From positions 1-37,938 of the forward strand of contig JARYLI010000016.1 in the NCBI GenBank assembly GCA_029907715.1: DNA of 37,938 nucleotides, written 5' to 3'. The translations under genes were made by a program, and so were the position numbers. The notes beneath the pieces were generated by a model. The model made no database searches, was not told where the DNA came from, and saw only the letters and a list, made by a program, of their open reading frames with translations. Of this stretch, positions 23,968 to 32,590 are shown in pieces (the first letter of the stretch is position 1; each line of letters begins with the position of its first letter). Source of the DNA: Methanothrix sp. Lineage in GTDB: Archaea > Halobacteriota > Methanosarcinia > Methanotrichales > Methanotrichaceae.

Positions 23968-24084
23968 GTATTTGCTCAATATCGTGAGCGTACTTGAGTT
24001 ACTGATCAAGTGAAGCCGCTATCATCGGGCATAGTCGTTCATACAGAAATCGTCAGGAGGGCAATTTAGCTCAACAGCATGTTC
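23968..24084 (+). repeat. Repeat C, copy 1
   Basis: 117 bases from GTATTTGCTCAATATCGTGAG to CAGCATGTTC. It matches repeat C at 26360 and 30556 along its length, but the right terminus has lost a few bases (GTATTGA missing). Confidence 0.75.
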
Positions 24085-24119: not shown

Positions 24120-24267
24120 CGCTCTTATCCATTTGATGACTTGTCTGAAGGAGCAGAGGCCATGCTATGCGTTCGTTTCGACTTACCTTCGACTGCATCA
24201 AAGGCTGGCAATGAATGCTTTCATCGACCACATTGCAGCTCTGCAAGTTGCTACGCACGTAAGAGCG
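24120..24267 (+). mobile_element. Element A, long form, with 8-bp duplication
   Basis: 148 bases from CGCTCTTATCCATTTG to GCACGTAAGAGCG. Flanks are identical octamers AATAGCTT (24112-24119 and 24268-24275). It is about 24 bases longer than the 124-base form through a CTTCGACTGCATCAAAGG segment. The right octamer overlaps a TATA-like sequence of the transglycosylase gene. Confidence 0.9.
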
Positions 24268-24325: not shown

Positions 24326-25531
24326 ATGGCAGAGCATTTCTCCTTTGATGTCCTGAAGCGATCGAGGGTGACGCGCGCGAGGCTTGGGGTGATCAGGACG
24401 CGCCGGGGATACATAGAGACGCCCCAGTTCGTCCCTGTCGCCACAGTGGCTTCTGTCAGGGCGCTCGGTTCAGATGACCTGAGAGCCCTGGGTGTGCAGG
24501 CGATATTCGCAAACACGTATCATTTGCATCTGCGAACAGGAGAGGATCTCATAAGGAGGATGGGCGGGCTCCACAGGTTCATGTCATTTGATGGCCCCAT
24601 CTTCACGGACTCAGGCGGGTTTCAGGCATTCTCCCTTGGGCTGGGGCGGGAGCACAACATAAGCAAGATAGGAAGCATCTTCCCGCAGGGAAGACGGTCT
24701 CCAGAGCGCAGAGAGAACCTGACGAGGATCACAGATGAGGGCGTCGCCTTCAAATCCTTAATCGATGGTGGATGGCATTTTCTCGACCCCAGGAGCGCCA
24801 TGCGGATCCAGAGCAGGCTTGGATCTGACATCATCATGGCATTCGATGAATGCACATCTCCGCTCTCTGATTATGACTACACCAGAGAGGCTATGGAGAG
24901 GACCCACCGCTGGGCTGTCCAGTCTTTGAGGTACCACGACAGGAGACAGGCAATATACGGCATCATACAGGGAGGATGGTTCGAGGACCTCCGCAGGGAG
25001 AGTGCGGATTTCATAAGATCGTTGCCTTTCGACGGCATCGCGATCGGAGGCTCTCTCGGAAACTGCAAGGAGGACATGCACCAGGTTCTTGATTGGGTCA
25101 TCCCAAGGCTGGATGACCGACCCAGGCACCTGCTTGGAATCGGGGAGATCCCGGACATCTTCGAGTGCGTCGAGAGGGGAATCGATACATTCGACTGCGT
25201 CCATCCAACAAGAATCGCACGCAGAGGCAACCTGTACATATCCCCGGCATCAGGAGGATGCATTGAAAACAAGTTCAGGATAAGCATAAAATCCTCGATC
25301 TTCAGGGACGACAAGAGGCCCGTGGACCCGAGATGCGGGTGTCCAACATGCAGGATGTACAGCAGGGCGTATCTCAGACACCTCTACATCTCGAAGGAGC
25401 TCTCATACTTCAGAGCTGCCACCGTCCACAACGTCTACTTCATGCTCAGGCTGATGGAGTCGATAAGGAGATCTATAAGAGAGGGAAGGTTCAGCGCGCT
25501 CAAGAGAAGGTGGATGAAGAGTGAGCCATGA
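24326..25531 (+). CDS. tgt: Bacterial-type tRNA-guanine transglycosylase
   Basis: 401 residues that exchange guanine for a 7-deazaguanine base in tRNA. Catalytic residues are present: D95 in FTDSGGFQ, D287 in GIDTFDCVHPTR, and zinc ligands C337-X-C339-X2-C342 with H368. The length, lack of a C-terminal PUA domain and the RAYLRHLY...TVHN ending are those of bacterial queuosine-type enzymes acting at position 34. Archaeal archaeosine enzymes are longer. The substrate loop reads GGSLGN instead of GGLAVGE, a variant I associate with Tgt from uncultured bacterial groups. It overlaps the YhhQ-type transporter gene. It was probably acquired from bacteria. Confidence 0.88.
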   Translation: MAEHFSFDVLKRSRVTRARLGVIRTRRGYIETPQFVPVATVASVRALGSDDLRALGVQAIFANTYHLHLRTGEDLIRRMGGLHRFMSFDGPIFTDSGGFQAFSLGLGREHNISKIGSIFPQGRRSPERRENLTRITDEGVAFKSLIDGGWHFLDPRSAMRIQSRLGSDIIMAFDECTSPLSDYDYTREAMERTHRWAVQSLRYHDRRQAIYGIIQGGWFEDLRRESADFIRSLPFDGIAIGGSLGNCKEDMHQVLDWVIPRLDDRPRHLLGIGEIPDIFECVERGIDTFDCVHPTRIARRGNLYISPASGGCIENKFRISIKSSIFRDDKRPVDPRCGCPTCRMYSRAYLRHLYISKELSYFRAATVHNVYFMLRLMESIRRSIREGRFSALKRRWMKSEP

Positions 25532-26327
25532 TGGAGGGTCTGGCAACAATCCAGTCCATTATTATTCTGGTGGCGGGGAACGCCGTTTATCGCATGATCC
25601 AGCATCCGGATCCTCCAGCTTCAGGATCCGCATCGATAAAACACAGGCGACGATAATCCTCTGCGGGCTTTACATATTTTTCTCACTGGCAGGCAACATA
25701 GCCGCGACAAAGGTCACCTATTTCGGAAGACTTGTCATGGATGCTGGCTTCATATACTCCATCACGTTCACATGGAGGGACCTGATACACAAGCAGCTTG
25801 GAAAGAGGGCTGCCATCACCACGATCTGGCTGAGCGCGTTTGTAAACCTCCTGGCAGCCCTCTACTTCCAGATCGTGGTTCTGATGCCGGCGGAGCCTGA
25901 GTGGGCCGCAAACGGCGGGCAGGCTGCATGGCAGTTCCTTTTCGGGATATTCGAGACTTCTGGTGGCCCATGGTGGCAGTCGATCTTCTCCCTCCAGCTC
26001 AGGATCGTTCTCGGCTCGGTGATAACCATGGTCATAGCAGAGCTCATCGACACCCAGATCTATCACCTCTGGGTCACTGGCTGGGGCAGGAACAGACCTC
26101 AATGGGCCAGGGTTGCGGTGTCCAACGCGATATCGATACCTGTAGACAGCACATTGTTCCCGCTTATAGCATTCACCGGAATAATCGGATTCGATGCGAT
26201 GATCCAGATGTTCCAGACGAATATCGTTGTGAAGGTGATTGTCACGCTTCTCACATTCTGGACGATATACCTGGTGCCAGAGAGGCCGATATTCGAGCAG
26301 CATGGAGATGACGCAAAGCACAATTGA
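25521..26327 (+). CDS. yhhQ: YhhQ-family queuosine precursor transporter
   Basis: 268 residues with about six membrane helices after a ~40-residue polar N-terminus. It matches the VUT/YhhQ family: GNIAATKVTYFGRLVMDAGFIY, FTWRDLIHKQLGKRAA, LIDTQIYHLW and NAISIPVDSTLF. Characterised members import 7-deazapurine precursors of queuosine (preQ0, preQ1 or queuine). The only available start is GTG 25521, which overlaps the tgt stop by 11 bases. Overlap with tgt makes a salvage pathway the natural reading. Confidence 0.88.
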   Translation: MSHDGGSGNNPVHYYSGGGERRLSHDPASGSSSFRIRIDKTQATIILCGLYIFFSLAGNIAATKVTYFGRLVMDAGFIYSITFTWRDLIHKQLGKRAAITTIWLSAFVNLLAALYFQIVVLMPAEPEWAANGGQAAWQFLFGIFETSGGPWWQSIFSLQLRIVLGSVITMVIAELIDTQIYHLWVTGWGRNRPQWARVAVSNAISIPVDSTLFPLIAFTGIIGFDAMIQMFQTNIVVKVIVTLLTFWTIYLVPERPIFEQHGDDAKHN

Positions 26328-26359: not shown

Positions 26360-26609
26360 GTATTTGCTCAACGCTCTTATCCATCTGATAACTTGCTCGA
26401 AGAGACACCAGTCACGCTATGCGTTCGTGTTGAGCGAATGGGTGCATTCAGCGACCGGCCTGCATATCCTTCAAGTTGCTGAATACATAAGAGCATTGCT
26501 CAATATCGTGAGAGTGCTCGAGTTACTGATCAAGTGAAGCCGCCATGGCACAGTTGTTCATCCAGAAATCGTCAGGAGGGCAATTTAGCTCAACGTATTG
26601 AGCATGTTC
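26360..26609 (+). repeat. Repeat C, copy 2, split by element A
   Basis: Left part GTATTTGCTCAA (26360-26371), then element A, then TTGCTCAATATCGTGAG through to ATTGAGCATGTTC. Its ends are inverted: TGCTCAATATCG on the left versus TGCTCAATACGT read from the right. The right end shows the full terminus that copy 1 lacks. Confidence 0.8.
26372..26495 (+). mobile_element. Element A inserted in repeat C, with 8-bp duplication
   Basis: 124 bases flanked by identical TTGCTCAA octamers (26364-26371 and 26496-26503). The intact repeat C copies at 23968 and 30556 show the empty site. The last base is A instead of G. Confidence 0.92.
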
Positions 26610-30867: not shown

Positions 30868-32370
30868 TCAGAGGAACCTGAAGCCCTTTGGCATCTCCCC
30901 AAACCTCTTCCGGAACTCTTCGGGCCAGTTCTCCGGGTCCAGGCCTTTCTGTCCGAGAAATACGCTCGTCCATCTCTCCAGGCCCACTCCACTGCAGCCG
31001 CTCCAGAGGCTCTCGCCGCTCTGTGCCTTTACAGAGAACCCCTTCGGATACTTCTCCCCGTTAACAGAGAGGTTCTGGAACTCGATCCAGTTGCCGCTGT
31101 AGGGGAGCAGCGCCTCGTAGTCTATTGTGCCGGCACCCTCCATCTCAGCAAGGCCTGTCCTGCCCTCCTGCGCCATGAACCAGGGAGTGACCCAGGCCAT
31201 GCGCCAGCGCAGCTCCAGTATCTCCTCGAAGATCCGCCTGTACCTCTCCTTGAGCCGCTCCGCCTCCTCCATGACCTGCTGCTTTGTGCCGAGCCACACG
31301 ATCTCGATCCTGTGGAACTCGTCTACGCGCTCTATGCCATGAATGCCTCCGGACTCGTATCTGTGACTTGTTCCAGACCTGTCGAACACCTTTATGGGGA
31401 GCTCATCGTTCGGAAGCGTGGCGCCCTGGAGGAAGACCCAGAATGTGGGGCACTGAGCATAGCACATCCCGCCGATCGGGTAGTCGATCTTCTCCTTTAT
31501 CAGATCAAGCGGAACCTCATGGGTCACCTTGTAGTAATCCATGACCTCCTCCCAGAACGCTGGGTCCCTGCTCTTCGGCGGGCACACGTAGTAGATCTCA
31601 GGGTAAACTCCCTGGGCATGACCGCTCCTCTTCCACACATCCCATGTGTCGAGCTTGGGAAAGATCATCTCCCTGTATCCAAGCGGCTCAAGGATCTCCT
31701 CGAGCACGATCTTCTCGAACGTCCTGAAGAGATGTGTCGACTGCGGGCCGTGTATCCACTGGCCTCTCGCGGATCCGTGCTTTATCCATCCCCTCTTCAG
31801 CATCTCCTGCGTGGGGTCGCCATCGAATTTAATCTCCCTCAGCGGGCTCTCCCAGAGCAGCTCCCAGTGCTCGGCCTTTCCGCCGTAGCTCTGGAGCTTC
31901 TCCTCGAGCAGACTGACAATCCTGTCAGGGATGCGGTTCTCGAGCATCCATGTCCATCCGCGCTTCGGATCCTCGACGCCCAGGAGGAGCGTGAGGCGTC
32001 CGTCCTCGTATCTCGACTCCCTGACATAGGGAATCCTGTGGGTTATCGGGCGATCGGACTCGATCTGTATCTCAAACCTGCTGACATCTATGCCCCGTAT
32101 CCCCAGCCTGTGTTTTCTGCCGAGGAGATCCGCGAGCGGTTTTCTGAGCCTCAGAAGGGCATCATGAGCCCTCACGTACCTGTCACTCTCTATCGTTATC
32201 TCCAGCCGGTCATCTGCGACCCTCCAGCCATCAACCCTCGCGCCCATGCCCTCAGGCGCGCCCTTCTTCAGGAGGTCCGCAGCCTGCTTTTCGAAGAACT
32301 CGGCGAGATCGCCCTCAGCCTTTGCGGCATCGCCGCTGAGCTTCAGGCTCGCCTCCAGGTGAAATCTCAT
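30868..32370 (-). CDS. serS: Type-2 (methanogen) seryl-tRNA synthetase
   Basis: About 500 residues of the rare, zinc-dependent class II SerRS restricted to methanogenic archaea. The three zinc ligands fall at C307 (YAQCPTFW), E356 (HRIEIVW) and C459 (SGCSGVG), within two residues of the C306/E355/C461 set known from Methanosarcina barkeri. The ending GLERW is the motif 3 arginine region. The ATG at 32370 is 1 base after the pcc1 stop and has GGAGGT upstream, so serS is the last gene of the rps15-recJ-like-pcc1-serS operon. No bacterial-type SerRS is seen here. Confidence 0.95.
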
Positions 32371-32371
32371 C

Positions 32372-32590
32372 TCAAACCTCCGAGGAGCCAATGGCCTCCT
32401 CAGCCACCTTGATGTTCATCAGAAGATCATCGACCGTGGACAGCACTGTTCCGATCCTCTCAGCAGAGAGCTCCACGATCAGCTCATCCTTCTGCACAGA
32501 GACCTTCATGCTTGGAAGGTTGTCCGGCTCCAGCGCCTTTGATATCTCCTGCACATCACTGCCCCAGAAGATGAGCTTTACATATATCAT
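32372..32590 (-). CDS. pcc1: KEOPS subunit Pcc1
   Basis: 72 residues of the Pcc1 family, the dimerising subunit of KEOPS, which makes the t6A modification in ANN-decoding tRNAs. The core [13 protein letters not shown] and the C-terminal [16 protein letters not shown] are diagnostic. The ATG overlaps the stop of the recJ-like gene (ATGA), and serS begins 1 base after its stop. Confidence 0.9.

Follow-up and report, generated by a model that had tools for sequence, protein, structure and literature searches.

Queuosine (Q) is assigned to bacteria and eukaryotes, and archaeosine to archaea. Direct salvage of the finished base queuine is a route also taken by eukaryotes, whose queuine users have a valine in place of Cys158 in the tRNA-guanine transglycosylase (TGT). 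The closest described gene set is that of Chlamydia trachomatis, where tgt and a queuosine precursor transporter (QPTR), without queA, salvage queuine (PMC11570991). The enzymes of queuine salvagers typically carry the motif GG[LS][AS]G (PMC11570991). Val233 blocks the productive binding of queuine, and loss of its side chain makes room for it (PMC3660597, PMC6165067), while the peptide flip that accompanies preQ1 binding is supported by Glu235 (PMC3660597). In 34 archaeal genomes, Methanosarcinales among them, Castelle et al. 2021 described bacterial Q pathways, some complete and others partial, with queA-queH-tgt clusters in DPANN (PMC8204110), and Zallot et al. 2017 noted QPTR homologues in archaea and proposed that they salvage preQ0 (PMC5372724). 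The papers that we searched, few of them subscription papers, contained no report of tgt and QPTR joined in archaea, or of queuosine in archaeal tRNA. Hence, the preliminary description of the locus presented here, which says that queuosine is not known from archaea, is right about the chemistry as far as we found, and not about the genes, since archaea with bacterial Q genes were described in 2021 (PMC8204110). As far as our literature search reached, the new part is the putative archaeal salvage pair.

This pair, found in Methanothrix, has the same two protein families as C. trachomatis and lacks the same finishing enzymes, a likeness seen at the level of the gene set. It differs from that system in standing beside an archaeal TGT (ArcTGT), in having an enzyme from a separate clade, whose loop reads GGSLG and which contains about 26 extra residues, and in its overlapping or adjacent genes. 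The preQ1-inserting Tgt of Z. mobilis and E. coli share all catalytic and zinc residues with the archaeal enzyme, at about 40% identity and a TM-score (by target length) of about 0.9, but they have the loop GGLAVGE instead of GGSLGN and lack the insert, and the archaeal gene has no queA partner. The DPANN clusters (PMC8204110) and an archaeal queA-tgt pair described below also contain a bacterial-type Tgt, the latter with the loop GGLSIGE and on its own tree branch. ArcTGT belongs to the same superfamily and is encoded elsewhere in the host genome, but it is longer, acts on preQ0 at position 15 and lies far away on the tree. Finally, the transporter exceeds the cut-offs of the QPTR/YhhQ family (COG1738, PMC5372724), of which it represents a divergent subfamily, 23-26% identical to the canonical QPTRs of related archaea.

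The tgt-QPTR pair in Methanothrix

The window, i.e., the whole stretch of 37,938 nucleotides that we analysed, comes from a genome of 2.0 Mb that is 99.9% complete. The features of interest are all on the forward strand:

24326..25531, +, tgt, bacterial-type tRNA-guanine(34) transglycosylase of the SLG-loop clade; ATG start, 401 aa (TIGR00430 profile, tree, AlphaFold model)
24608..24610, +, codon of Asp95, which corresponds to the catalytic Asp102 in Z. mobilis TGT; conserved without exception in 33 members of the clade (alignment)
24641..24718, +, insert of about 26 residues (~106-131) that ordinary bacterial Tgt do not have (gap in the PDB alignment, low pLDDT)
25046..25063, +, substrate loop GGSLGN, residues 241-246, in place of GGLAVGE (alignments)
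25193..25195, +, codon of Asp290, which corresponds to the nucleophile Asp280 in Z. mobilis TGT; conserved without exception in 33 members of the clade (alignment)
25521..26327, +, QPTR/YhhQ-family queuosine precursor transporter, divergent subfamily; GTG start, 268 aa (PF02592, TIGR00697)

The identification of the first gene as a bacterial-type tgt was correct: its product matches the Pfam TGT profile with 415 bits and the NCBIfam bacterial TGT (bTGT) profile TIGR00430 with 464.5 bits (cut-off 306.75). It remains under the cut-offs of ArcTGT (TIGR00432, 114 bits for a cut-off of 350) and of DpdA (NF041059, 22.5 bits for a cut-off of 200), which rules out membership in either family; for ArcTGT the tree does so as well. 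A profile search of the 401 residues gave no PUA match, in agreement with the reported lack of the archaeal PUA region. The catalytic aspartates and the zinc pattern CxCxxC...H are complete in the alignment with Z. mobilis, and D95, D174, Cys176, D290 and the zinc ligands C337, C339, C342 and H368 are invariant in the 33 members of the clade. The AlphaFold model (pLDDT 88.8) has the bacterial TGTs of Z. mobilis and T. maritima as top PDB matches and is confident outside the extra stretch, a low-confidence region located after TDSGGFQAFSLG. Owing to these additional residues, the protein is not quite of the bacterial length that had been stated. The length of the stretch varies widely among species of Methanothrix (compared with the counterparts in L047, L048 and L050), with a maximum of about 100 residues.

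The second protein matches Pfam Vut_1 (PF02592) with 110.6 bits (cut-off 27.2) and the queuosine precursor transporter profile TIGR00697 with 62.6 bits (cut-off 50.95). Its gene overlaps tgt by 11 bases (25521-25531), exactly as described from the sequence. Overlaps of 11 or 19 bases are common to many relatives and the gene order likewise recurs across the family, hence the pairing is not due to chance. The model of the transporter, examined for a membrane fold like that of ECF S-components, is helical (pLDDT 65.5) and too weak for a cargo site to be read from it; its matches to RibU and ThiT are weak, none of them below an E-value of 0.001, and the QPTR profile found no relative in the PDB.

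The nearest named match of the window enzyme is in Methanothrix sp. LCB019-064 (98% identity), among the best 80 of 447 relatives in a scan of genome contigs. Further genes of the window are archaeal, for instance those encoding a DUF2240 protein, an S15 protein with the S13/S15 N-terminal domain, and a seryl-tRNA synthetase (SerRS) with a tRNA_bind_4 domain. We could rule out a one-off contamination or misassembly given these genes, the 22 family members with the same gene order, and the other arrangements found elsewhere.

Distribution and phylogeny

We searched 61 genomes and found a bTGT over the cut-off in 24, all of them Methanotrichaceae (24 of the 37 in this family). The divergent QPTR occurs in 22 of these 24 genomes, always adjoining tgt and downstream of it, and in none of the 13 Methanotrichaceae lacking bTGT (Fisher test, p about 3e-8, uncorrected for shared ancestry). 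Among the Methanotrichaceae searched, it is thus found only together with an SLG-loop tgt. The proposed coupling to a queuosine precursor transporter is therefore supported at the level of the family, and close relatives of the window locus do have the transporter neighbour. The two exceptions have a canonical QPTR, which is 334 bases downstream of tgt in one genome (G008) and elsewhere in the genome in the other (G025). In one relative (G012, positions 2410-3129 of L043), the QPTR adjoining tgt is broken into two reading frames, with an in-frame TAG, and is either a pseudogene or an assembly error.

A phylum-wide search revealed the same enzyme in two further families (54-60% identity) and in a third (71-74%). 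The scan of genome contigs added Archaeoglobi, including Mnemosynella, an ANME-1 MAG (ANME-1-THS) and, on the DPANN side, Woese-, Pace-, Nano- and Aenigmatarchaeota. It also gave a few bacterial MAGs, of Patescibacteria, Chloroflexi, Armatimonadetes and Planctomycetota. The bacteria of the clade are under-sampled, as the scan retained no more than the best 80 of 447 relatives, and some MAG labels may be wrong, above all those of isolated bacterial members. A scan of viral contigs gave no relative, and the plasmid and phage records listed contain only bTGT at 38-43% identity.

In the IQ-TREE phylogeny, the SLG-loop enzymes form a single clade (97/90) that falls with the bTGTs, and ArcTGT is far off behind a split supported at 100/100. 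The window protein, whose placement the preliminary description had proposed to check, lies outside ArcTGT, among Methanothrix and ANME-1 sequences (94/83); the next branch holds four sequences of Patescibacteria type (99/88). The arrangement of the neighbouring transporter differs across the clade. The pair of tgt and divergent QPTR is co-directional and often overlapping in Methanothrix and ANME-1-THS, and convergent in one Woesearchaeota. A canonical QPTR is convergent with tgt, often a few bases away, in many DPANN and some Archaeoglobi, and in tandem with it in Mnemosynella biddleae and one Methanothrix. Because two QPTR subfamilies occur beside the same enzyme in differing orientations, the association must have arisen more than once. 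The state of the neighbour changes at least 10 times on the tree (9 when coded as present or absent), counts that cannot separate gain from loss. Outside Methanothrix, QPTR is found in 39 of 50 clade genomes, several of the 11 others being small or incomplete MAGs, and QueA in only one of the 50.

Three other families of the same class have a classical bTGT, with a GGLSIGE loop, 35-39% identity to the window enzyme and a separate branch in the tree. All eight genomes of this type that were searched encode QueA. In the five loci that we inspected (L077-L081, of genomes G380, G401, G424, G404 and G231), a homologue of 340-370 aa in the QueA position is directly upstream of tgt. This classical enzyme is likely a separate acquisition, associated with Q synthesis from preQ1. 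Given these differences in partner, archaea possess bTGT of two separate kinds, accompanied by a synthesis gene in the one and by a transporter in the other.

Substrate loop and other 7-deazaguanine genes

In line with the preliminary description, the substrate loop of the window enzyme differs from that of the preQ1-type pocket: in the alignment, GGSLGN is one residue shorter than the GGLAVGE of Z. mobilis and E. coli-like enzymes. The form GGSLG[K/N] is almost invariant among clade members. Glu235 is lost, being replaced by Asn or Lys, and the region of Val233 is shortened. HMMER sets the gap in two different registers, in one of which a Leu stands where Val233 would be. GGSLG agrees with the motif of queuine salvagers at 4 of 5 places, with the same ambiguity of register. 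Judging from the sequence, the loop would favour an enzyme that is not of the preQ1 type more firmly than one of the queuine type, as a consequence of this ambiguity. Cys158 is retained in the window enzyme, which would count mildly against a solution of the eukaryotic type.

The genome search proposed in the preliminary description showed that the host has a true ArcTGT (615 bits, cut-off 350), as well as QueC (165 bits, cut-off 150) adjoined by a QueE-like sequence recognized by eye. The bTGT does stand beside an archaeosine enzyme, and with ArcTGT and QueC in the genome, both archaeosine and preQ0 are already supplied and no preQ0 needs to be imported for archaeosine. QueA is absent from the host genome and from the 60 relatives searched, and QueH from 50 genomes of the family. 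Only two of these 50 have QueF, and the host genome is not one of them. One of the two QueF matches (G033:C187:20304-21169, L031) is just upstream of a canonical QPTR and on the same strand. A search for Qng1 gave no match, and its controls were equally silent.

Away from tgt, the host genome encodes a second, canonical QPTR paralogue (G000:C18:12851-13318; L033:7624-8376). Such canonical QPTRs are present also in relatives without bTGT, where they perhaps serve preQ0 salvage.

Proposed base salvage at the wobble position and its alternatives

We propose that the two genes form a base-salvage module. The QPTR would import a 7-deazaguanine base shed by neighbouring Q-making bacteria, and the bTGT would put it in the place of the guanine found at position 34, the wobble position, in the GUN tRNAs (Asp, Asn, His, Tyr), a target suggested by the family to which the enzyme belongs. 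As the genome lacks QueA and QueH, which lead from preQ1 to Q, the base is most likely imported in its finished form, queuine being the best candidate, as in the direct salvage route. The ArcTGT of the same genome would still make archaeosine at position 15. We assign to this reading, insertion of a finished base at G34 with queuine as the likely one, a probability of roughly 0.6. The preliminary description had left open whether the cargo was queuine, preQ0 or another deazapurine; with no QueA or QueH, nearly no QueF, and a QueC for endogenous preQ0, we favour queuine, or else preQ1, over preQ0. It had also named tRNA position 15 or another target besides position 34; we consider position 15, and likewise DNA, unlikely in view of the separate ArcTGT and of a DpdA score well short of the cut-off.

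In favour of queuine, the alignment shows the loop shortened at the place where loss of the Val233 side chain would admit this base. Some points would weigh on the other side, i.e., the place at which GGSLG departs from the published motif, the Leu at Val233 in one register and the kept Cys158; the papers searched also held no report of queuosine from archaea with the SLG loop. Moreover, Bartonella has the same gene set, tgt and QPTR without QueA, and uses preQ1 better than queuine: its enzyme and transporter prefer preQ1, and traces of preQ1 were found in the tRNA of Bartonella henselae (PMC11570991). The main rival to queuine salvage is thus the import of preQ1, left as end product at position 34, for which the retention of Cys158, a residue of preQ1 affinity (PMC3660597), also speaks. 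We nevertheless regard it as rather unlikely, given that the Bartonella loop is GGLAVG whereas the archaeal one is shorter with Glu235 changed to Asn or Lys, and that a conserved pathway stopping at preQ1 across so many lineages would be odd.

It is less probable still that preQ0, endogenous or imported, is placed at position 34 or at a new site, possibly as precursor of an archaeosine-like base. With QueC in the genome preQ0 should be at hand, and members of the QPTR family in E. coli carry it (PMC5372724). However, it is difficult to see why home-made preQ0 would call for a dedicated importer, and a second QPTR paralogue already exists. The family members without bTGT retain QueC and in many cases a canonical QPTR, but the divergent one is always missing from them. 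We give a similarly low chance to a different, perhaps undescribed, 7-deazaguanine derivative matched to the SLG loop. The loop GGSLG[K/N], which hardly varies in the clade, and the additional residues fit no preQ1, queuine or preQ0 enzyme exactly, yet queuine accounts for the gene set without a new compound, and no base of this other kind is known to be shed by bacteria of these habitats. Finally, the enzyme shares its superfamily with ArcTGT and DpdA, and might be a backup enzyme for the archaeosine of position 15, or act on DNA as DpdA does; the ArcTGT already present, the low scores for both families, the missing PUA match and the fully supported split from ArcTGT make this very improbable.

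More broadly, a cross-domain TGT clade with its own loop probably performs wobble-position base salvage in archaea (Methanothrix, an ANME-1 member, Archaeoglobi, DPANN). Position 34 of their tRNA would then hold queuosine, or else a new 7-deazaguanine nucleoside, derived from bacterial neighbours, beside archaeosine at position 15. A tRNA modification thought to be missing in archaea may thus be present in many of them. If the module works as proposed, many archaeal lineages, some with cultured members, would acquire a wobble base from bacteria and have both modifications in use, and Q would be a traded micronutrient of anaerobic communities, including those of acetate-using methanogens. The SLG loop would then be another natural solution to substrate choice in TGT.

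Two other elements of the window deserve mention. Direct repeats occur on both sides of the pair (23972-24075, 24120-24181 and 26372-26594). These sequences represent an interspersed repeat whose units measure roughly 120 bases and which has at least 58 matches in the host genome and many in the same genus, with no match in the other genera searched; this rules out a mobile island bounded by them. On the reverse strand, the SerRS-like reading frame at 30868-32391 bears the tRNA_bind_4 domain, which we take to be a feature of methanogen-type SerRS.
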